This document shows positions 47,051 through 57,769 of a stretch of 64,000 nucleotides of DNA, one piece after another; position 1 is the stretch's first letter; every line of letters begins with the position of its first letter. This DNA comes from Roseivivax jejudonensis. Lineage in GTDB: Bacteria > Pseudomonadota > Alphaproteobacteria > Rhodobacterales > Rhodobacteraceae. The stretch covers positions 372,001 to 436,000 of the forward strand of contig NZ_FWFK01000002.1 of assembly GCF_900172265.1 (NCBI RefSeq). Direction: 5' to 3'. Below the pieces are notes generated by a model that saw only the letters and a list, made by a program, of their open reading frames with translations, searched no databases and was not told where the DNA came from. The position numbers were made by a program, and so were the translations under genes.

Positions 47051-48790
47051 TTACTTCGTCAGGAGCTCCGCCTCGTGCCGCTTGAGTGACCGGCGGGCCG
47101 ATGCATAGGCGCGGATCCCGCGATCCTCCTCGAGCTCCGGGAAGAGCTCCAAAATCTCTTGGCGCTGCGCGTTGCCGATACCCTTCAGGCTGTAGTCGCC
47201 CGGCTGGAAGCTCTCGGTCCAGGTCCCGTTCGACAGCACGACCTCGTGGGCGTCGAACATGAAATGGATGTACGACACGCCGAGCGACGTCACCTCGTCC
47301 ACGCCCTCGATCCCGGTCAGGTGCTTGGCCGCCGCCAGAACCTCACGCTCTTCGAAATAGAGGGCGGTCTTGTCGTTCGATACCAGCATCCGGTGGTTCG
47401 GCGACACGAGCATGTCGTGGGTCGGCAGGCCGGTCCCAAGCGCGCCCTTCTGGATCAGGATCGGCTTCAGATGCGGTTTTCGCGCGAGCTCGAACGGAAC
47501 CAGGTCCTTGCGGCCGAGCCAGCGGATTTCCTGGATCCCGTTGTCGCGGGTGATGATCCTGTCGCCCTCGCGCAGATCCTCAACCAGGCGTTCGCCCTGC
47601 GGCGTCGCGATCAGTGTGCCGGGCGTGAAGCAGGGAATGACCTCCTCGATGTTGAAGAAATCCATCCGGCCCGTAACGGACCCGTCGCCATCGAGGAACT
47701 CCACCGTCCCGTCGATGCCGTTGGGCTCGCGGTCCGGGCCGTCATCGTCGGGCCGAACGTCGGTCAGGCGGAAATTGCCCGCGCCCACGCCGGTAAGGTC
47801 GAGCACGTCGCGATCCTCACCCTCGGCCCCACCGAACACGGTGTCCCCGCTGCCCTGATCGGCCGAGCCGACGACGATCCTGTCTGCATCGGCGCCGCCG
47901 CGGATCACGTCGGCCCCATCGCCGCCATCGAGCGTGTCGGCCCCCTGTCCGCCGATGAGCGAGTCCGCGCCGCCGTCCCCCGACACGAGGTCGTCACCGT
48001 CACCGCCCTCGACGGTGTCCGAACCGCGGCCGGCATTGACGGTGTCGTCGCCATCGCCGGCAAGCACGCGATCGTCGTTCGGCGCGTCGCCGTCGAGCAG
48101 AGCGTCCTCGTTGTCGATCCGGTCGGGCGGCGTATCGGGGTCGCCAAGATAGTCGATGTCAATCAGGTCGTCTTCCGGCGTGCCTTCGACGATACCATCG
48201 CGCGCGGGCTCCACCGTCACAGTGACGGTCGCCGTGTCGCGGCCGCCCTGCCCGTCGTCGGCGACATAGCTGAACGTGTCGTTCCCGACGAACCCGGGCT
48301 CGGGCGAGTAGAGGATCGGCCCGAGCGGATCCTCCTGCGTGACGGTGCCGTGATCGGGTTGCGTGAAGTCGAGAACGCCAAGGATGTCGCCGTCGCCATC
48401 CGTGTCATTGGCAAGGATATCGGCCGAGACTGCGACGCCGGCGACCGTCTGGATCGTGTCGTCGACGGCGTGGGGCGGCACGTTGCCATCCCCGTCATTC
48501 GACACGGTGACTGTCACCGTCGCGGTGTCTTGCCCGCCTTCGCCGTCGTCGACCTCGTAGGTGAATTGATCGACGCCTTTGAACCCCGGAACCGGCGTGT
48601 ACGTGATCGTGCCGTCACCGTTGAGCGTGACCGAGCCGTTGGACGGCGTGCCGACCGCGCTCACGCCGAGAGGGTGGCCCTCGGGGTCGCTGTCGTTGGC
48701 GAGGACGGAGATCGTGACCGGCGTTCCCGTCGCGGTGTTCGCGGCATCGTCCTGCGCGTTCGGGTCGAGATTCCCGGGTTTTCCGACCAT
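47051..48790 (-). CDS. secreted cadherin-like/RTX protein with C-terminal Hint domain
   Basis: A 579-residue acidic protein without an N-terminal signal peptide. Two cadherin/VCBS-like repeats of about 95 residues come first (each with ILAND or VLANDSD near the start and DTATVTVTV at the end). Glycine-aspartate calcium-binding RTX repeats (about 235-320, SDTVEGGDGDDLVSGDGGAD) follow. A Hint (hedgehog/intein) domain starts at Cys387 (CFTPGTLIATPQGERLVEDL) and includes THDMLVSPNHRMLV. RTX repeats suggest calcium-dependent folding after type I secretion. The Hint domain may self-cleave or form thioesters. No type I secretion genes adjoin it. Confidence 0.88.
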   Translation of the reverse strand: MVGKPGNLDPNAQDDAANTATGTPVTISVLANDSDPEGHPLGVSAVGTPSNGSVTLNGDGTITYTPVPGFKGVDQFTYEVDDGEGGQDTATVTVTVSNDGDGNVPPHAVDDTIQTVAGVAVSADILANDTDGDGDILGVLDFTQPDHGTVTQEDPLGPILYSPEPGFVGNDTFSYVADDGQGGRDTATVTVTVEPARDGIVEGTPEDDLIDIDYLGDPDTPPDRIDNEDALLDGDAPNDDRVLAGDGDDTVNAGRGSDTVEGGDGDDLVSGDGGADSLIGGQGADTLDGGDGADVIRGGADADRIVVGSADQGSGDTVFGGAEGEDRDVLDLTGVGAGNFRLTDVRPDDDGPDREPNGIDGTVEFLDGDGSVTGRMDFFNIEEVIPCFTPGTLIATPQGERLVEDLREGDRIITRDNGIQEIRWLGRKDLVPFELARKPHLKPILIQKGALGTGLPTHDMLVSPNHRMLVSNDKTALYFEEREVLAAAKHLTGIEGVDEVTSLGVSYIHFMFDAHEVVLSNGTWTESFQPGDYSLKGIGNAQRQEILELFPELEEDRGIRAYASARRSLKRHEAELLTK

Positions 48791-49534
48791 GTCTTTGCCC
48801 TTTCCGGTTTGGGCCGGGAGGCCTCTGCCCACCCCCACCCATCGGCAGCCCGTGGCGAAGCACGGCGCTCGGTTGCACTCGTCTCCCACGCGGCGGAAGG
48901 ACGGTCGCGCCCGTCAGGGCATCCGGACGACAGGCACAGCCCCGTCGTCGGCGAAAGCCGGGCCTTTGCCCGGTCACCGGACCGTCGCGTCCCGCAAGAG
49001 GGATCTGTTTTTCGGTGCGGCCGCCCCCGTGGCCGGCAGTCATCGCCCCCCAGTTGGGCGTAGTTCTGTGATAGCGCCGGGCCCGACCGGCACAAAGATA
49101 AAAATGGCGCAAACGCGGCGGATTCACCCGGATCATGGCGAAGTTCGGGCCCCCATTCGCTCTCTAGACAGCCCCGAGCCGGATTTATTGTTTCCCAATG
49201 GATGACGGCTGAAGAGAATAAAGCAATAAATATGGAAAAAACTCTAATGAGCTATCCGGATTGTCGCCTCGCGCGAAACGATTCCGGGGCGCCGCATCTC
49301 CGCCGCAATTTGATCCAGGCCGCACCGGCCGCGGGGTCGCGCTGTGTCACGTGCCGAACCAATCCGGCCGCACAACCCGAATTTGCATCGCTTTGGTCTG
49401 CAAAATCGGCGCGTTCCGCGATTCGCAGCGTGTGGTGGCCAGATTTATGCCGAATTCCCGATTGCGGCGGTCGCGAGACGACCGGAACGGCCCGGCCGCG
49501 ATGGGTCGCGACGCCGACGTCTCGGTCCTTGGCG
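48791..49534. other. 744-bp region without a supported gene
   Basis: It lies between the 3' end of the chemotaxis operon and the 5' end of the Hint gene, both on the minus strand, so it should contain the Hint promoter. The stretch 49182-49258 is strikingly AT-rich for this genome (ATTTATTGTTTCC, AATAAAGCAATAAATATGG, AAAAAACTCTAATGAG). A plus-strand reading frame from 49202 runs on into the antisense of the next gene and is not credible. No terminator for the chemotaxis operon is obvious. Confidence 0.55.
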
Positions 49535-49903
49535 TCAGAAAAGATCGACTTCGCCAACCGATGGTGCCGGGACTGCCGTGCGCTCGCCTCTCAGCGCCTG
49601 CACGAGATCGCGCAGCCGGACCTGCGACAGCGCGCGGTCGAGGTCGAGGTCGGGCGGCGCGTCGATCTCGCGCGCGAGGCCGTCGAACAGCATTCCGAGT
49701 TCGCTCAGCGTCTGCAGCAGCCGATCGAGGTTCTGCAGTGCCGCGGAGACTGGCGGAATGGCCTCCTCCCGTTCCTGCAACGCACCGCTGATCCACCCTT
49801 CGAGCCGCAAGCCGTCCTGCTCGAGCTGGCGCATTTCGCCGGCCAGCCGCGAGAACAGTACGTCGAGAGGGACGCCGGACGACGTGTTGTCTCGCTCGGT
49901 CAC
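49535..49903 (-). CDS. candidate CheT/CheZ-like CheY phosphatase
   Basis: A 122-residue, mostly helical protein and last gene of the chemotaxis operon. The predicted hairpin (about 15-105) carries D60-R-L-L-Q64, a DxxxQ motif of the kind used by CheZ and CheX phosphatases and reported for rhizobial CheT. The C-terminus ends VGEVDLF, nearly the same as the end of CheD in this operon (VGDVDLF). It resembles in character the CheY-binding C-terminal peptide of E. coli CheZ. It begins with GTG overlapping the cheY stop as GTGA. Function is inferred from motif and position. Confidence 0.55.
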   Translation of the reverse strand: MTERDNTSSGVPLDVLFSRLAGEMRQLEQDGLRLEGWISGALQEREEAIPPVSAALQNLDRLLQTLSELGMLFDGLAREIDAPPDLDLDRALSQVRLRDLVQALRGERTAVPAPSVGEVDLF

Positions 49904-50286
49904 AAGGGCCCCACGACCGCCTGCAGACAGGTCTTCATCTGCGGGGTGTCGAATGGCTTGGTGATGAAGTTGTTGAGGCCGAGCTTCTTGCCGGTGCTCA
50001 AAATCTCCTTGTCCAGCTTGCCGCTGACAAGGATGAAGCCGATCCGGCTCGTCTGCTTGTTCTCGCGCAGTGCCTTGAGAAGCTGAAGCCCGTTGAGGCC
50101 CGGCATGTTGTAGTCCGAAATCACGAGGTGGACGGGCCTTGCCGCAATCTTCTGCAAAGCGGTCTGTCCGTCTTTGCAGAAATCGATCTGGCGGATGCCG
50201 ATCTGTTCCAGCGCCATTAATATGAGTGAACGACTGGTGCTCATGTCGTCCACGACCATGACCGACAATGATTGCTTGAGTGACAT
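49900..50286 (-). CDS. CheY-like response regulator (second copy)
   Basis: A 128-residue single-domain receiver. Acidic pocket Asp14-Asp15, phospho-acceptor Asp58 (LVISDYNMPGLNG), Ser in FILVSGK in place of the switch Thr, and Lys in FITKPFD are present. It lies one base after cheR and overlaps the DxxxQ protein gene. In alphaproteobacteria with two CheYs, one usually binds the flagellar motor and the other drains phosphate. Sequence alone does not tell which this is, but pairing with the putative phosphatase gene suggests this copy is its partner. Confidence 0.88.
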   Translation of the reverse strand: MSLKQSLSVMVVDDMSTSRSLILMALEQIGIRQIDFCKDGQTALQKIAARPVHLVISDYNMPGLNGLQLLKALRENKQTSRIGFILVSGKLDKEILSTGKKLGLNNFITKPFDTPQMKTCLQAVVGPL

Positions 50287-50287
50287 G

Positions 50288-51184
50288 TCATTGCATCCTG
50301 CGTGCAGAGGAAAGCCTGGGATCGGTGGAGCGGCAGAACGTCGTCCGACCGCACAGGTCCAGCCGATCGCGAAACTCCGGGCCGAGCCGCTCGGAATGGC
50401 CGATGAATAGGGTGCCTTCGGGCCCGAGGACGGCTTCGAGCCCGGCCCAGACATGGGCCTGCGTGTCGTCGGCCATGTAGATCGCCACGTTGCGGCAGAA
50501 GATGGCGTCGAACGGGCCGCTCAGCGGCCACGGCTCCATAAAGTTCAGATAGCGGAACGTGACCAAATTGCGGACCGCCGCGGTGACGACGACGTGGTCC
50601 GGCTCGGGATCCGGTTCGAACATCACGGCGCGCAGCGCGTCCGGCACGGCTGTCGGCCCGGGATCGCGATAGCGCCCTTCTTGCGCGGTGGCCAGCGCCT
50701 CGACGCTGATATCCGTGCCAAGTACGCGCACGTCGTGCCGGGCTGCCTCTGGAAAGGCACCGAGCACGGTCGCGGCGATCGAATACGCCTCTTCGCCTGT
50801 CGAACAGCCCGCCGACCACAGGCGGACGCGCCCGCCGGACCTTGCCTGCGCCGAGAGGCGCGGCATCACCTCCGTCGCCAGGTAGTCGAAGTGCTCACCC
50901 TCGCGAAAGAACCGCGTCGTATGCGTGCAGAGCGCGATGACCATGCGGTAGCGCTCGGCCTCCTGCCCCGGCGCGCGGATCCGGTCGAGATAGTCGCGGA
51001 ACCGGACAAGACCGAGACCACGCACATGCCGGTTCAGCCGCGAGTAAACGAGTTGCCGGTTTTCGGGGCCGAGGCTGATGCCGGCATCGACGCGCAGCAG
51101 CTCAGCCACCGCATCGAAGTCGGCATCGGTGAACTCGACGCCCGCGCTCGCCGTCACGGGGACCGGATCGGAGACGTCGGCCAT
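50288..51184 (-). CDS. cheR: chemotaxis protein methyltransferase CheR
   Basis: CheR methylates glutamates of chemoreceptors with S-adenosylmethionine. The 298-residue protein has the N-terminal CheR_N helical domain (about 18-75). Thereafter come THTTRFFREGEHFDYL, the SAM-binding WSAGCSTGEEAYSIA, LGTDISVEAL, and FDAIFCRNVAIYM. The ATG overlaps the cheW stop as TGATG. The partner methylesterase gene cheB is not in this operon, so adaptation by demethylation must rely on a gene elsewhere or on CheD. Confidence 0.93.
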   Translation of the reverse strand: MADVSDPVPVTASAGVEFTDADFDAVAELLRVDAGISLGPENRQLVYSRLNRHVRGLGLVRFRDYLDRIRAPGQEAERYRMVIALCTHTTRFFREGEHFDYLATEVMPRLSAQARSGGRVRLWSAGCSTGEEAYSIAATVLGAFPEAARHDVRVLGTDISVEALATAQEGRYRDPGPTAVPDALRAVMFEPDPEPDHVVVTAAVRNLVTFRYLNFMEPWPLSGPFDAIFCRNVAIYMADDTQAHVWAGLEAVLGPEGTLFIGHSERLGPEFRDRLDLCGRTTFCRSTDPRLSSARRMQ

Positions 51185-51657
51185 CAGGCTTCCTCGGGAA
51201 GCCGAATGCGCGGAAGGACCGTCGCAATGTCGAGGATACGCAGCATGCGGTCGTCGCTGGCAATCACGCCCTCGATGAACCCGGCCGTGGCATCCGAGCC
51301 CATGCGCGGCGGCGGCTTGATCTCCGACGGGGCGATGCCGAGGATGTCGGACACGGCGCTCACGAGAAACCCCACCGTCTGGTCCCCGAGCACGGCGATT
51401 ATGATCACGTGTCGCGGGGTCGGCTCGAGCGGGATCAGACCGAGTCGCGACGCGAGATCCACGATCGGAACCACCGCGCCACGCAGGTTGATCACGCCGA
51501 GAATATACGACGGCGCGTGCGGCAGCATGGTCACGTTCGTCCAGCCGCGGATCTCGCGCACAAGCATGATATCCATGCAGAAATCCTGCTCGCCGATGGC
51601 GAAGGACACCAGTTCGCGGGTTCCGGTGGCGCTCTGGTCGTCTCGGGGCTCGGCCAT
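51184..51657 (-). CDS. cheW: chemotaxis coupling protein CheW
   Basis: CheW links chemoreceptors to CheA. The 157-residue protein is a single CheW domain (about 14-150): [22 protein letters not shown], then [24 protein letters not shown] with the conserved NLRG, and [12 protein letters not shown]. It lies two bases after the stop of cheA and overlaps cheR by one base. Only one stand-alone CheW is present in the cluster. Confidence 0.95.
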
Positions 51658-51659
51658 GC

Positions 51660-53975
51660 TCAGTCTCCGTTGGCAGTCACAAGCGGCGAAAGCGGCGCGA
51701 GTTCGCGTTCCGCGATGCGCGCGGTCTCTTCGGGATCGATGATGAGGGCGATCTTGCCGTCGCCGAGGATGGTGGCCGCGGCCACCCCGGGAACATGCCC
51801 GTAATTGCCTTCCAGGCTCTTGATGACGACCTGCCGCTGGTCGATGATCCGGTCAACCGCGAGCGCCCAGCGCTCTCCCTGCTCCGTCTCCACGAGGAGA
51901 AGCACGAGATCGGTGAGGCCGAGCCCTGTCGCCCTGTAACGGAAGGCCCGACCCAGATCGACGATCGGCACCAGGCTGTCTCTCACGTTGAGGACCTCGG
52001 CACTCGCGCCCATCCGATGGACATGCTCGCCGTCCGGACGGATCGTCTCCACCACGGACGTGATCGGCACCACCATCGTCTGTCCCGCGACATCGACGAC
52101 CATGCCGTCGAGAACGGCGAGCGTCAGAGGAAGCGAGATCGCGAACGTCGTGCCGCGTCCGGGCGTCGAGGTGATCGAAACGCGGCCTCCAAGCTTTCGG
52201 ATCGCGCTTTGGACCACATCCATGCCGACCCCGCGCCCCGAGAGATCGGTCACCTGGTCCTTCGTCGAAAACCCCGGGAGGAACAGCAACCGATCGATCT
52301 CACCATCCGAAAGCTGTGCATCCCGCGCCACGAGCCCCTTGCCCGCCGCAATGTCGAACACCCTCCGGCGGTCGATCCCCGCGCCGTCATCGGCGACCTC
52401 GATCAGCACCCGACCCGACCGGTGCGAAGCGCTGAGGCGCACCGTGCCTGTCGGGCTCTTCCCGGCGCCGCGACGCGCCTCTGTCGCCTCCAGACCGTGA
52501 TCGATCGCGTTCCGGAGGATATGCGTGAGCGGTTCTATCAGGCGCTCGATCACCGTCTTGTCGATCTCGGTGTCCTCGCCTTCGGTCTCGAAGTCCACGT
52601 CCTTTCCGGCGACCTCCGACGTCTCGCGCACGATACGCGCCATTCGCTGAAAGAGCTGCTTCACCGATTGGGCTCGCAGCGACATGACGTTTTCCTGGAT
52701 CTGAAGCGCGAGGGACTTGTACTCGTCGAGCGACGCACCGAGGTCTGCGCGGTTCGCGACATGCGACTCGCTTACGCTCTGCGTCAGGACCGACTGATTG
52801 ATGACCAGTTCACCGACGATGTTGATGAGCGAGTCGACGAGGTCCAGATCGACGCGCACCGTCGATTTCGGGCTTTTGGCGCCACCCTTTGCGTCACCCA
52901 ACGCGCCGACGGCCGGTGTCTCTTGCGCCCGATACGCTGTGTCCGCCAAGGCGGATTGCGGCCGGCTGGTCGATCCGAGTGTCTCATCGTTCGCGATCGC
53001 GACGGGCGGGACGGCTGTGGTGGACTCTTGGTCCGAGCCAATGTCACCCCTCGACGCCTGCGCGGCTGAGCATTCGTCGATCTCGGGCCCCTCCGGACGA
53101 GGACCACCTGGACCGGCTTCAGGCTCGGACGTCGATTCCGCCGGGTCGGCTTCAATCCGGATCTCCGCCAAGGTCTCAACGAACTCGAAAATCTCGCGGA
53201 TGTCATCTTCGGAGCGTTCGGTAAGCAGATCGAGACGCCAGCCAAGATATGGCCGCTTCGCGGAGAGATCGGCGAACGCAGGGAGTGCGCCAGCATCGGC
53301 CGTCACCACGAGATCGCCGAGTGCGGCCAGTTCCCTGAACAGATACAGCGGTTCGTGACCGTTCGCAAAGAGCTCGGCCGTGGGACGCAGCTCAATGCTG
53401 AAGCGCGTGCGCGATGGGGATGGCAAATCGAGCGGGTCAGTCGAGAGTGCCAGGGGTGCAAAGGTCAGATCTTCGGCGTCCGCGTGTTGGAGCAGCTCAT
53501 CCGCGCCGATGGGCGCGTCCTCGCCTGCATCGGACGCTCCGGGATGATCGATGCGGCCGCTATCCGCCGGACCTTGCCCCTCGGCGAGGCGAGCCAATTG
53601 CGCCACAAGCGCGTCGTTCAGCGGCCCCTCGCTCCCGTCGCCCGCGCGGCCCGCCGCGACCAGGTCCGCGAGGTGATCCGCAGACCGTTGCAACACGCGC
53701 ATACTTTCCGCGTCCGGTGCCAGCTGGCCCGAGCGCATCTTGTCCAGAACGGTTTCGAAGCTGTGCGAAAACCGGACAATTGCGTCGAGACCGAAGGACG
53801 CCGCACCGCCCTTTATGGAGTGAACGTTGCGGAAGACCGCGTTGACGATCTCGCTGTCGTAACCTTGCGTCGTCGGCAAGTGCGCCTCGATGTCGGCCAG
53901 CCCATCGTTCAGTGCCTCGAGCAGTTCGTCGCATTCGAGGAAGAACATCTGCTTGATTTCGTCGAGCGAAGACAT
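51660..53975 (-). CDS. cheA: chemotaxis histidine kinase CheA
   Basis: CheA autophosphorylates in response to receptors and passes phosphate to CheY and CheB. The 771-residue protein has the P1 Hpt domain with phospho-His52 ([13 protein letters not shown]), and a middle region with P2-like segments (about 190-290) and acidic linkers. P3 dimerisation helices follow (about 370-440, [19 protein letters not shown]). The P4 kinase domain has the N box [20 protein letters not shown] and GRGVGMDVV, and P5 is CheW-like. ATG 53975 is used. An in-frame GTG at 53987 overlapping the cheY stop as GTGA is an equally good start. Confidence 0.95.
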
Positions 53976-53983
53976 GGTGCGGC

Positions 53984-54352
53984 TCACGTGGCTGCGATGC
54001 GGCGGATGGCGGCGATCAGCTTGACGTCGTCGAACGGCTTGACGACCCAGCCGGTAGCGCCGCTGTCGCGTGCGCGGGCCTTGAGATCCTGAGCGCTCTC
54101 CGTGGTCAGAACGAGGATCGGCAGCGCCGCGCGCGCAGCGTCTTCGCGGATGGCCGAGATCACTCCGAAACCATCGAGGCGCGGCATGTTGATATCGGTG
54201 ATCACGACATCCGGCTCGACCTCTGTGAGGGTCTCGAGCCCAGCCACCCCATCCTCCGCGGTATGAACGTCGAAGCCCGCGCGCGCGAGGCACATGCGCA
54301 GCATCTCGCGTATGGTCCGCGAATCGTCGATTGCGAGTATTTTCAGGGTCAT
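53984..54352 (-). CDS. cheY: CheY response regulator (first copy)
   Basis: A 122-residue single receiver domain. Asp9-Asp10, phospho-acceptor Asp53 (VVITDINMPRLDG), the switch Thr in LVLTTES and Lys in WVVKPFDD are all present. It lies between the STAS gene, which it overlaps as ATGA, and cheA. Single-domain CheY binds the flagellar switch when phosphorylated. The position next to cheA makes this copy a good candidate for motor control or a phosphate sink. Confidence 0.92.
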   Translation of the reverse strand: MTLKILAIDDSRTIREMLRMCLARAGFDVHTAEDGVAGLETLTEVEPDVVITDINMPRLDGFGVISAIREDAARAALPILVLTTESAQDLKARARDSGATGWVVKPFDDVKLIAAIRRIAAT

Positions 54353-54624
54353 GCATCGCTCCCCTCGGACAGCAGCTCGGCACCGAGGCCAAGCAGGCGG
54401 AGATCGTCCTCCATCGCGGCCGACGGACGAAGCGTGAAGCCGGCGCTGCGCGCGTCCGCGTCCCGGCGCGCCGCGAGCAGGACTTGCGCACACAGCGCGC
54501 CGCAGCTGCGCACTTGCGCGCCATCGAGAGAGACCTGGCCTAACGATTGCGCGGCAAGAGCGTCGTGGAGCGATGCCGCAGCGGCTGTGTCGAGCTTGTC
54601 CGGAAGCATGAATGGCGTGGACAT
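54349..54624 (-). CDS. STAS domain protein in chemotaxis operon
   Basis: A 91-residue protein consisting only of a STAS domain (VSLDGAQVRSCGALCAQVLLAA). At the usual D-S-S-G site the sequence reads R-S-C-G. The phosphorylatable Ser (Ser40) is kept but the preceding Asp is Arg. STAS proteins act as anti-anti-sigma factors or lipid-transport partners. In chemotaxis operons their role is unclear. AGGAG lies six bases before ATG 54624, and it overlaps the downstream cheY. No anti-sigma kinase gene is nearby. Confidence 0.75.
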   Translation of the reverse strand: MSTPFMLPDKLDTAAAASLHDALAAQSLGQVSLDGAQVRSCGALCAQVLLAARRDADARSAGFTLRPSAAMEDDLRLLGLGAELLSEGSDA

Positions 54625-54633
54625 GGTGGTCTC

Positions 54634-55173
54634 CTAGAACAGATCGACATCGCCGACGGCGACACGCGGGGGAGCGGTCTCGGCCGGGATCGCATCGGTG
54701 ACGAAAAGCATCTGGGCCTGTCCGGTGGAAGGGCGGTAGCGAAGACGCCGGGCCCGCTCACCACCCAGGCTTGACGAGACGAGGGGTATCTTTTCGGTGT
54801 TCAGGTAGTCACGCGCGAAGACGCAATTCGCCGCGCCGATCCGGCCGATGCCCCCTCCCATCGTGGCACCGCCGAAAAGCTTGGCTTCGAGCCGTGACTT
54901 TCGCGCGCCGAGCTTGAGCAAGGCGTTGATGAGAACCTCCATCGCATAGGATCCGTAGCGTTCTGAGTTGCCCATTTCGCCGTCGCGTCCGGCGAGCAGG
55001 AAATGGTTCATTCCGCCCACGCCCGCGATGGGGTCGCAAAGGCAGGTCGCCACGCAGGATCCGAGCAGTGTCGTGAAAACGATTCGGCCATCGTCGCTCA
55101 CGTCGTATTCGCCCTGAACCACAAGGCGGGTCGCGGCGGGCGCCTCGCGGGGATGAGAGCTCTGGTCGCTCAT
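54634..55173 (-). CDS. cheD: chemoreceptor glutamine deamidase CheD
   Basis: CheD deamidates glutamines of receptors and in some bacteria modulates CheC-type CheY phosphatases. The 179-residue protein has the catalytic triad in order: Thr34, Cys40 in LLGSCVATCL and His57 in GGMNHFLL. LFGGATMGGG and FVTDAIPAE come later. It ends in a C-terminal tail VGDVDLF, almost the same as the tail of the DxxxQ protein at the other end of the operon. This tail is an addition that suggests a shared binding partner. Confidence 0.93.
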   Translation of the reverse strand: MSDQSSHPREAPAATRLVVQGEYDVSDDGRIVFTTLLGSCVATCLCDPIAGVGGMNHFLLAGRDGEMGNSERYGSYAMEVLINALLKLGARKSRLEAKLFGGATMGGGIGRIGAANCVFARDYLNTEKIPLVSSSLGGERARRLRYRPSTGQAQMLFVTDAIPAETAPPRVAVGDVDLF

Positions 55174-55219
55174 GATCTCGTATCCGGCTCGATGTCAGGA
55201 CGGCGGCTAAAGGAACGGC

Positions 55220-57769
55220 TTAGAAGTCTGCCCACTTCTCGATGCCGCCGGCGGCTACGGGTTTCGGGAGCGGTCGCGCCCCGTCGGTCCCCGTGGTCGG
55301 GGCGGATGAGGCCGCGCGACCCGTGGCGGCGTTGCTTGTGGGCAGCCCGGTTTCGGCGACGCGGAAGCGCGCCAGAGTATCGACGAGAGACACGGCGTCG
55401 TTGCGCAGGGCCTCCGAAGCGGCGGTCGTCTCCTCCAGCCGAGCCGCCACCTGCTGTGTCGATTGGTCGAGCTGGGTCACCGACCCGTTGATTTCCTCGA
55501 GGTTGTTCGACTGCTGCTGCGCCGAACCGGCGATGTCCGAGACCAGGCCGGCAATCTCGGTGACGGACGTGGCAATGTGCTGGAGCGCCTGCCCCGTGCG
55601 CCCGACCAGATCGACGCCTTTCTGCACCTGCGAACCGCTTTCGGCGATCAGGTCCTTGATTTCGCGCGCGGCGTCCGAGGATCGCTGGGCGAGCGCGCGG
55701 ACCTCGGATGCGACGACCGCGAATCCGCGGCCCGCATCGCCGGCGCGAGCGGCCTCGACCCCGGCGTTGAGCGCGAGGAGGTTGGTCTGGAAGGCGATGT
55801 CGTCGATGACCTTGATGATCGAGGTGATCTTGTCGGAAGACGAGGCGATCTGGTCCATGGCGGCGACTGTTTCGACCACGACGTCGCTGCTTTCCTCGGC
55901 ATTGTCGCGCGCCGCCGCGGCCGCCGCGTCGGCTTGCGCGGCGCCCTCGGCAGCATGTTTTACCGAGGTCGTCAGCATGTCGAGTGCCGCGGCAGTCTGC
56001 TCCAGCGTCGCTGCGGTGCTTTCCGTTCGCTTCGACAGGCTGTCGGCGGTATTGCTGATATCGCCGGTTTCGTTGCGGATGTTGGCCGCCCGCTCGAGGA
56101 TCTCGACCAACGCGGTCTCGAGTTTTTCCATCGCCCCGTTGAAATCGAGACGCAGGTCTTCGTATTCGCTGGCGAACGGTTCGCGGATCCGTGTCGTCAG
56201 ATCGCCGTCGCTGACAGCGCTCAGCCCGACTCGAATGGCATCGACAACGGTGACGCGTTCGGCCTCTGCGCGCTTGCGCGCGTCGCGAGCGGTGGCGATC
56301 GCCTCGTGCGCTTCGGTGACGTCCTTGCCGAGCAGGATAACCCGGTCGAACTTTCCATTCCGGTCGGACACGGCGGTCAGGCTCCCGTCGACGACGACCT
56401 CGCGACCGTCGCGCGTCTTGAGATGCATGTTGCCGTCGAAAGGGGTCCCCCCGGCCGCCGCCGCCAGGCTGGCGGAGAGCGAGGCGTGATCCTGGCCGAA
56501 ACCGACGGCGAACGCAGAGAGATCGGTGCCTCGGAGACTGTCCGGCGAGACGTTGAGCGTCTTCGCGAAGAGCGCGTTGCCTCGGATGATCCGTCCGTCG
56601 CGATCGATCTGACAGAGCAATTGCGAAGACTCGATCGCGTCGGCCATCGCGTTCTTGAACCAGATGTCGCTGACATCCATCCATTCCAGGACGAAGCCGA
56701 TCGTGGAGCCGTCCGCATCGGTCGCGCGGTTCACGCGCAGTTCGATCCTGCGATTTCCGAGACGGAAATGGCTGGTCATCGTATCGCTGCCGAGCCGGGC
56801 GAGCCGCTCGCGGATTGGATCCGAGGTCGGATGGAACCGTTCGATGCTCTGGCCGACGAGCGTGTCGGGGTCGAAGTCGATGCGGCCGCTTTCCTTGAGC
56901 GCTGCACGCGCGGCCTGGAAGATCGCGACCATCGGGCCGTTCACCGCCATGATGTTCAGATCGGTATCGACGAGCATGATCGCCGCCGACGAGTTGCGGA
57001 AGGCCGCCCCCTGAAAACGCCGGTCACGTTCGGCCTCGCGACCCTCGTCGAGATCGACGCGCAGATCCTCCAGCGCGCGGGCAATGTCACCGATCTCGTC
57101 CGCGCGGTCGTTCATGGGAACCTCGACCTCGCGGTTGCCGAGGCGGAGCCCGTCGATGACATCACGCGCGGTGCGGATCGGATCGACGAGCACGCGCTTG
57201 TAGAGCGCGATCGTGACACCGAGCACGATCAGCGTGACCAGGGCAGAGACTGCGATCGCCTGCAGGGCAAGCGCGCGCGACCGCGCCTCGAGCGCGTCGT
57301 CGTTCCAGAATGAAACGAGGACCCCGACCGGATCCGGAATCGCGCCGTAGTGGATCGGCGCAGCGAAGCCGAGTTGCCCGTCCGCGACCACTGCGCCCTC
57401 CGCGAGCGCGCGGGCCGCGAGGTCTTCAACCGCCCCCTCCGAAAAGGCGCCCCGGCTGGCGATCGGCGCGCCGTCCGCGCTCAGGATCATGGCGCCGGAC
57501 ACATCGTTCTGTTCCATGGACATCAGGCGATCGATGAACTCCTCGGCGTGCTCGGCATTGCCGAAGCGCACGGCAGCGGCCGACATGTCTCCGACAAGGG
57601 CGGTGAGGTTGCGCGCCTCTTCGGTCAGTCCGGAGCGGGCGCTTTCGAGAATCCCGCGGCCATAGACGACCGATATGGCCGTGGCGACGATGACGCAGGA
57701 CAGAACGCAGAGGCACGCGATCTTCACGAAGACCGAGCGAAGACGGAAGGATGACGTGGAACCGGGCAT
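55220..57769 (-). CDS. methyl-accepting chemotaxis protein with PAS domains
   Basis: An 849-residue transmembrane receptor. It has helix TM1 (about 14-36), a periplasmic domain (37-170), TM2 (about 171-192), and HAMP (about 193-245). Two PAS-like domains follow (about 258-370, [19 protein letters not shown], and 378-490, [20 protein letters not shown]), then a second HAMP-like segment and the MA signalling hairpin with [27 protein letters not shown]. The C-terminus EKWADF fits the xWxxF tether peptide that binds CheR or CheD. It is the only receptor in the window. Confidence 0.93.

Follow-up and report, generated by a model that had tools for sequence, protein, structure and literature searches.

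The chemotaxis gene cluster in the window, by which we mean the whole stretch of 64,000 nucleotides analysed here, ends with a gene that, judged by profile comparison, encodes a divergent homologue of CheT and most likely a CheT orthologue. CheT was reportedly described for Sinorhizobium meliloti by Agbekudzi et al. in 2024 (doi 10.1111/mmi.15303). We consider it quite probable that the window protein is a divergent CheT and that it acts as a phosphatase of CheY-P with a mechanism like that of CheZ.

Gene and cluster context

The cheT-like gene is a genuine gene with an intact reading frame of 122 aa, starting with GTG (Table 1). A GTGA overlap joins this start to the stop codon of cheY2 (..CTTGTGACC..). 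The gene is the last in a same-strand run with the order MCP-cheD-cheS(STAS)-cheY1-cheA-cheW-cheR-cheY2-cheT-like. The initial annotation had proposed a 122-residue frame closing a chemotaxis gene run and coupled by a GTGA overlap to a cheY. Both the frame and the same-strand order confirm this, and the overlapped gene is cheY2. The setting is that of CheT, whose gene shares the main che cluster with cheD, cheS and a pair of cheY genes. The cluster (49535-57769) lacks cheB; CheB domains are encoded twice elsewhere in the genome, on other contigs and beside other cheR genes. The nearest solved relative of the window CheR is Salmonella CheR (1af7/1bc5).

On the same strand, 645 bases separate the cheT-like gene from the start of the next gene. 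The product of this neighbour, just past the che cluster (47051-48889, minus strand), carries repeats of the cadherin-like, Ig-like and RTX calcium-binding kinds and, at its C-terminus, a Hint domain. A promoter and terminator scan at the end of the cheT-like gene gave nothing usable, and a comparison with phage families gave no match. A tblastn search of plasmids with the window protein returned three partial Tritonibacter matches, which were not used.

Table 1. Positions of the cheT-like gene, its motifs and the other genes of the chemotaxis cluster in the window.
Feature	Position	Strand	Basis
cheT-like gene, 122 aa	49535..49903	-	GTG start on cheY2 stop; homologues in other genomes
Codons of Q57..D60..Q64 (QxxDxxxQ), the only invariant residues of the family	49712..49735	-	26/26 and 79/79 sequences; helix face
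C-terminal tail GEVDLF of the CheT-like protein	49538..49555	-	Conservation of G117 and F122; genome-wide pattern search
cheY2, likely substrate, receiver domain	49900..50280	-	PF00072, E 4.1e-22
cheR, possible docking partner	50288..51184	-	PF01739, E 3.3e-54
cheW	51184..51657	-	PF01584
cheA	51660..54017	-	Hpt, dimerisation, ATPase and CheW domains
cheY1, coordinates as scanned, start approximate	53984..54409	-	PF00072, E 5.2e-27
cheS-like STAS protein	54349..54624	-	PF13466, E 1.8e-09
cheD	54634..55173	-	PF03975, E 1.6e-25
C-terminal tail GDVDLF of CheD, same pattern as the CheT tail	54637..54654	-	Second of two genome-wide matches
Chemoreceptor (MCP)	55220..57769	-	PF00015
KWADF, receptor-type pentapeptide ending the chemoreceptor	55223-55237	-	The only one of the genome's three MCPs with such an end

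Kinship with CheT

Homology to S. meliloti CheT is clear at the level of profiles. A profile of 26 sequences from the same family matches S. meliloti CheT with an E value of 2.9e-15 and places its LQGIDLAVQ on the motif of the window protein. By hhalign, a Rhodobacterales-only profile and a profile from other orders align at 99.3% and E 1.4e-20 over 120 columns. Profiles of this kind also pick up coiled coils, the best PDB match being a designed coiled coil at E 1.4e-6. The reading of the gene product as a CheT-type protein in the initial annotation, together with the alignment to rhizobial CheT that it had called for, is borne out by these profile results.

The window protein itself finds no match in NCBIfam, including the CheT model NF047973 with its cut-off of 200 bits, and nothing above cut-off in Pfam, where the best hit is a DUF at E 0.14. 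Pairwise BLAST against Sinorhizobium CheT is not significant (E 0.022) and misaligned. Because both the curated model and BLAST fail to recognise it, we would place the window protein as a divergent CheT homologue outside the curated equivalog. S. meliloti CheT passes NF047973 with 225.5 bits, and among 20 homologues scanned singly only the Sinorhizobium one lies above the cut-off. A same-family homologue with 33% identity to the window protein (L005) aligns with this model along almost its whole length at E 1.9e-9. CheT of the window type is invisible to current annotation models.

Gene position was compared in 80 named loci, which were fetched through their CheY2 and hence independently of CheT. 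The same-family profile detects CheT in 78 of them (E <= 8e-6). The two loci without a match are contigs of 6380 and 6856 bases that end at or before the expected site, and CheT is found in all 78 loci whose contigs are long enough. Among them are loci of Sinorhizobium, Rhizobium, Agrobacterium vitis, Caulobacter, Brevundimonas, Gluconobacter, Rhodoblastus and many Rhodobacteraceae. The pattern Q..D...Q is present in every one (78/78). The cheT gene follows straight after cheY2 in 47 loci, after cheD in 30 and stands elsewhere in one; cheY2 adjoins cheT or is one gene away in 77 of the 78. In the single deviating locus, from a Rhodobacteraceae MAG (L074:1029-1466), cheT occupies the upstream edge of the cluster, ahead of the STAS gene and not behind cheY2.

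S. meliloti CheT resembles the window protein in size, in the motif LQxxDxxxQ and in its cluster with cheS, cheY1, cheA, cheR, cheY2 and cheD. Its tail GDFEAF also fits the pattern of the window tail, with G, an acidic, a hydrophobic and an acidic residue, any residue and F. The two differ in gene order, as cheT in the window stands straight after cheY2 and in a cluster without cheB, whereas in S. meliloti it stands directly after cheD. They differ further in that the window protein goes unrecognised by NF047973 and has a pairwise identity too low for BLAST. In the record analysed (CP090106.1), S. meliloti cheT is annotated as 'hypothetical protein'. This 3.7-Mb record is named plasmid pSymB of S. 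meliloti Ak57; it carries the main che and flagellar genes and is probably a mislabelled chromosome. In the accessible part of PMC12654446, which treats CheT in detail, S. meliloti CheT is described as a DxxxQ protein that speeds up dephosphorylation of one of two CheY proteins and forms a complex with CheR. An excerpt of PMC8429497 mentions CheT as uncharacterised.

The QxxDxxxQ motif and the predicted fold

The translated reading frame contains D60-x-x-x-Q64, as claimed in the initial annotation, within the local sequence ALQNLDRLLQ. Taken alone, D...Q is no evidence of function, because it is found in 9690 of 20000 shuffles of the window protein (48%). The weight rests on conservation. A single-sequence search matched 27 of 198 same-family genomes, the own genome counted. 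One match was dropped (L019), since it has an internal stop and no che gene nearby; the true copy lies elsewhere in that genome. The remaining 26 loci have at least one che gene within 1.5 kb, and in their alignment Q57, D60 and Q64 are the only invariant residues. The profile built from these 26 sequences matches in 78 of the 198 genomes, 74 of them at E <= 1.9e-8, while four (G008, G131, G177 and G180) are weaker than E 1e-7 and may be false. Extending the alignment to 79 homologues across Alphaproteobacteria, with about 20% identity per column, again leaves only Q57, D60 and Q64 invariant. With D60 and Q64 kept in 26/26 and 79/79 homologues, we reject a chance motif. The family alignment narrows the presumed catalysis to three residues.

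The AlphaFold model of the window protein (pLDDT 85.2, pTM 0.74) is a helical hairpin of residues 13-44 and 50-79. Behind the hairpin come two short helices and a linker rich in Pro and Ala, and confidence is low beyond roughly residue 111. The angular offset from the hydrophobic face of helix 2 is -160 degrees for Q57, 140 degrees for D60 and 180 degrees for Q64. All three residues are within 40 degrees of the pole opposite this face and would therefore share one exposed polar face of helix 2. The helical character expected in the initial annotation is reproduced by the model. Its proposal was to fall if D60 and Q64 were unconserved in orthologues or did not share a helix face near a CheY pocket; they are invariant in 79 of 79 sequences and lie together on the polar face of helix 2. 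Foldseek with the window model gives no match at E <= 0.001. Its best rows are helical proteins of unrelated kinds, as a helical hairpin is a common fold with generic matches. CheZ is not among the rows listed, which speaks neither for nor against kinship with it.

Relation to CheZ and CheX

The likeness to CheZ is one of presumed mechanism. An excerpt of PMC3510030 describes how DxxxQ of CheZ places a water on the phospho-aspartate of CheY. According to the available part of PMC7750401, CheZ forms a dimer of hairpins, has a linker, binds CheY through a C-terminal helix and carries AxxFQ just ahead of DxxxQ. CheZ proteins (PF04344; E. coli and alphaproteobacterial) and CheT share DxxxQ halfway along one helix of a helical hairpin, an acidic-hydrophobic C-terminal peptide behind a linker, and the same presumed reaction. 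Unlike CheZ, CheT has a Q at position D-3, about half the length and a different tail. AxxFQ is missing beside DxxxQ in the window protein. The window monomer is modelled as a hairpin, and the CheZ type is a four-helix bundle of two hairpins.

Sequence kinship with CheZ is unsupported. The window protein does not match PF04344, and hhalign of the CheT profile against 20 alphaproteobacterial CheZ rows, one of which (L159) is a wrong 28-residue fragment left in the set, gives 0.7%. Since we see only generic fold matches and no sequence relation, kinship with CheZ, as opposed to mechanistic likeness, would not be supported. Kinship with CheX or CheC was likewise considered and rejected. The accessible text of PMC3510030 gives the catalytic pattern of CheX as ExxN, no CheC or CheX family of Pfam matches the window protein, and the invariant pair is that of DxxxQ. 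The statement in the initial annotation that DxxxQ is the pattern of both CheZ and CheX holds for CheZ and fails for CheX.

CheZ (PF04344) was found in none of the 198 same-family genomes, the same sample in which CheT is found in 78. The earlier claim that CheZ is absent from most alphaproteobacteria is loose as worded, because PF04344 matches in 70 of 190 sampled Alphaproteobacteria genomes; for the family it holds. The contrast between CheZ and CheT applies at the family level only, as the first round of the CheT search across the class was limited to few candidates in each genome and gave few true matches. Its matches L039, L041, L042 and L043 have no che neighbours and were taken as false.

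A C-terminal tail common to CheT and CheD

The window protein ends with ..SVGEVDLF. In the 79 aligned rows, conservation within this tail is 0.72 for G117 and 0.84 for F122. To compare the ends of the che products in the 80 named loci, terminal residues were counted for those genes that a window query recognised and whose 3' end is complete. A terminal F is found in 56 of 78 CheT, 55 of 60 CheD and 35 of 44 receptors. The corresponding counts are 0/78 for CheR, 0/79 for CheW, 0/79 for CheA, 0/76 for CheY1 and 1/79 for CheY2. In these loci CheT and CheD have G-[DE]-[VIL]-[ED]-L-F in common, and the receptors end with [GD]-W-E-[ED]-F. Across the 4.3-Mb genome of the window, the pattern [DE][VILM][DE][LF]F-stop has two matches, which are CheT and CheD, and the reversed control also has 2. 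A stricter pattern including the G gives 20 matches in the 198 family genomes, compared to 3 for the control. Three of the 20 read TGG for the stop codon; the other 17 are 8 CheT, 3 CheD and 6 that match neither.

Roughly one in four of the 78 loci lacks the CheT tail or has it in changed form, and the states of this tail follow phylogeny. The tail is lost in CheT of some Leisingera, Pararhodobacter and Paracoccus (L103, L105, L106, L091, L095, L100, L107 and L113). In L091, L095, L100, L107 and L113, CheD encoded at the same locus keeps its tail. A CheD tail of the form DVELF or close to it is also present in Vibrio (L217), Azospirillum (L215 and L216, the latter with three additional residues) and Novosphingobium (L218); from the Vibrio and Azospirillum records CheD alone was examined. 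As the CheD tail reaches these further groups, Vibrio among them, it may be older than the CheT tail.

The C-terminal pentapeptide of chemoreceptors, NWETF or GWEEF, binds CheR and CheB. The CheT tail resembles it in a hydrophobic residue at position 2, acidic residues at positions 1 and 3, a final F and a flexible linker ahead of it. According to an excerpt of PMC7390727, the receptor pentapeptide binds CheR at its beta-subdomain; W occupies position 2 of the peptide, F occupies position 5, and the other positions are acidic. EVDLF of the window protein does not satisfy this consensus because of its V at position 2, while F at position 5 and the acidic residues at 1 and 3 fit. More generally, the CheT/CheD tail has V/I/L (F in rhizobial CheT) in place of the receptor W and L/F/W in place of the receptor E/D, and its carriers are soluble proteins, not receptors. 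The rhizobial CheT tails (..DFEAF and ..DFDFF) come closest to the receptor pentapeptide. A literature search by title or abstract returned nothing on CheT or CheD tails, and the original 2024 CheT paper may discuss the tail; the tail shared by the two proteins is possibly new.

The CheT tail is probably a docking peptide and not a part of the active site. Tentatively, and with some doubt, we suggest that G-[DE]-[VIL]-[ED]-[LF]-F is one and the same docking element at the C-termini of CheT and CheD, and a variant of the receptor pentapeptide. It would compete with chemoreceptors for one surface, for which the beta-subdomain of CheR (or CheB) is the likeliest candidate, and occupancy of CheR would couple adaptation to signal shut-off. 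Docking of this kind on CheR, if true, would explain the reported CheT:CheR complex. Signal termination by CheT and receptor deamidation by CheD would then compete with the receptors for the same surface, and a common tail could explain how both proteins are tied to the adaptation enzymes.

The main rival to a common docking site, perhaps on CheR, is that the CheT tail binds CheY as in CheZ and FliM and tethers CheY-P to the phosphatase. This reading bears on the tail alone and does not conflict with the phosphatase function proposed for the body of the protein. The alphaproteobacterial CheZ tail ..SQ[DE][DE]IDALL.. and GEVDLF indeed share the order acidic, hydrophobic, acidic, any residue, hydrophobic. 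Yet the same tail is present in CheD, which in this setting is not known to act as a CheY phosphatase, and it occurs in CheD of Vibrio and Azospirillum as well; the CheT tail stops exactly at its C-terminal F in those 56 of 78 loci, without the SQ of CheZ. We regard CheY binding by the tail as rather unlikely. Of the earlier comparison of this peptide with that of CheZ, the hydrophobic-acidic character stands, but the tail is closer to that of CheD and loosely to the receptor pentapeptide.

Proposed function in signal termination

For the window protein we infer phosphatase activity and substrate, as well as dimer state and docking role. By homology, it would dephosphorylate CheY-P, most likely that of CheY2, the product of the overlapped gene. 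In analogy to CheZ, Q64 would enter the active site of phosphorylated CheY and orient the attacking water, and D60 would hold a CheY residue. Q57, on the same helix face, probably helps to hold the complex.

A CheT homologue could also have mainly an adaptation role by recruiting or regulating CheR as its partner, and DxxxQ would then serve more for CheY recognition than for catalysis. The CheT:CheR complex from S. meliloti (excerpt of PMC12654446), the resemblance of the tail to receptor pentapeptides as a known CheR ligand, and the position of cheR two genes upstream of cheT are in line with such a role. However, D60 and Q64 are among the only residues invariant in 79/79 sequences and exceed the tail in conservation, where the terminal F is found in 56/78, and we judge an adaptation role improbable as the main function. 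A coiled-coil protein, degenerate or unrelated, in which D...Q arose by chance is hardly credible as the gene product. The frequency of D...Q in shuffles and the generic hairpin fold would fit it, but it is contradicted by three invariant residues in 79 sequences, a conserved gene position and homology to S. meliloti CheT.

As a CheY-P phosphatase, CheT would end the chemotaxis signal in bacteria without CheZ, beside the CheS/CheY1 phosphate sink of the same cluster. For rhizobia, an excerpt of PMC8429497 describes this sink. Given the absence of CheZ from 198/198 family genomes, CheT and the CheS/CheY1 sink would be the termination routes visible in the window cluster. CheT is a direct candidate for ending the signal in Rhodobacter- and Roseobacter-type bacteria, where CheZ would not be available for this step. 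A further CheY-P phosphatase in Rhodobacter, a group without CheZ in this sample, is the phosphatase domain of Rhodobacter sphaeroides CheA3, which, according to an excerpt of PMC6829392, acts on CheY6-P and no other CheY-P. It differs from CheT as part of a split CheA and is another kind of protein.
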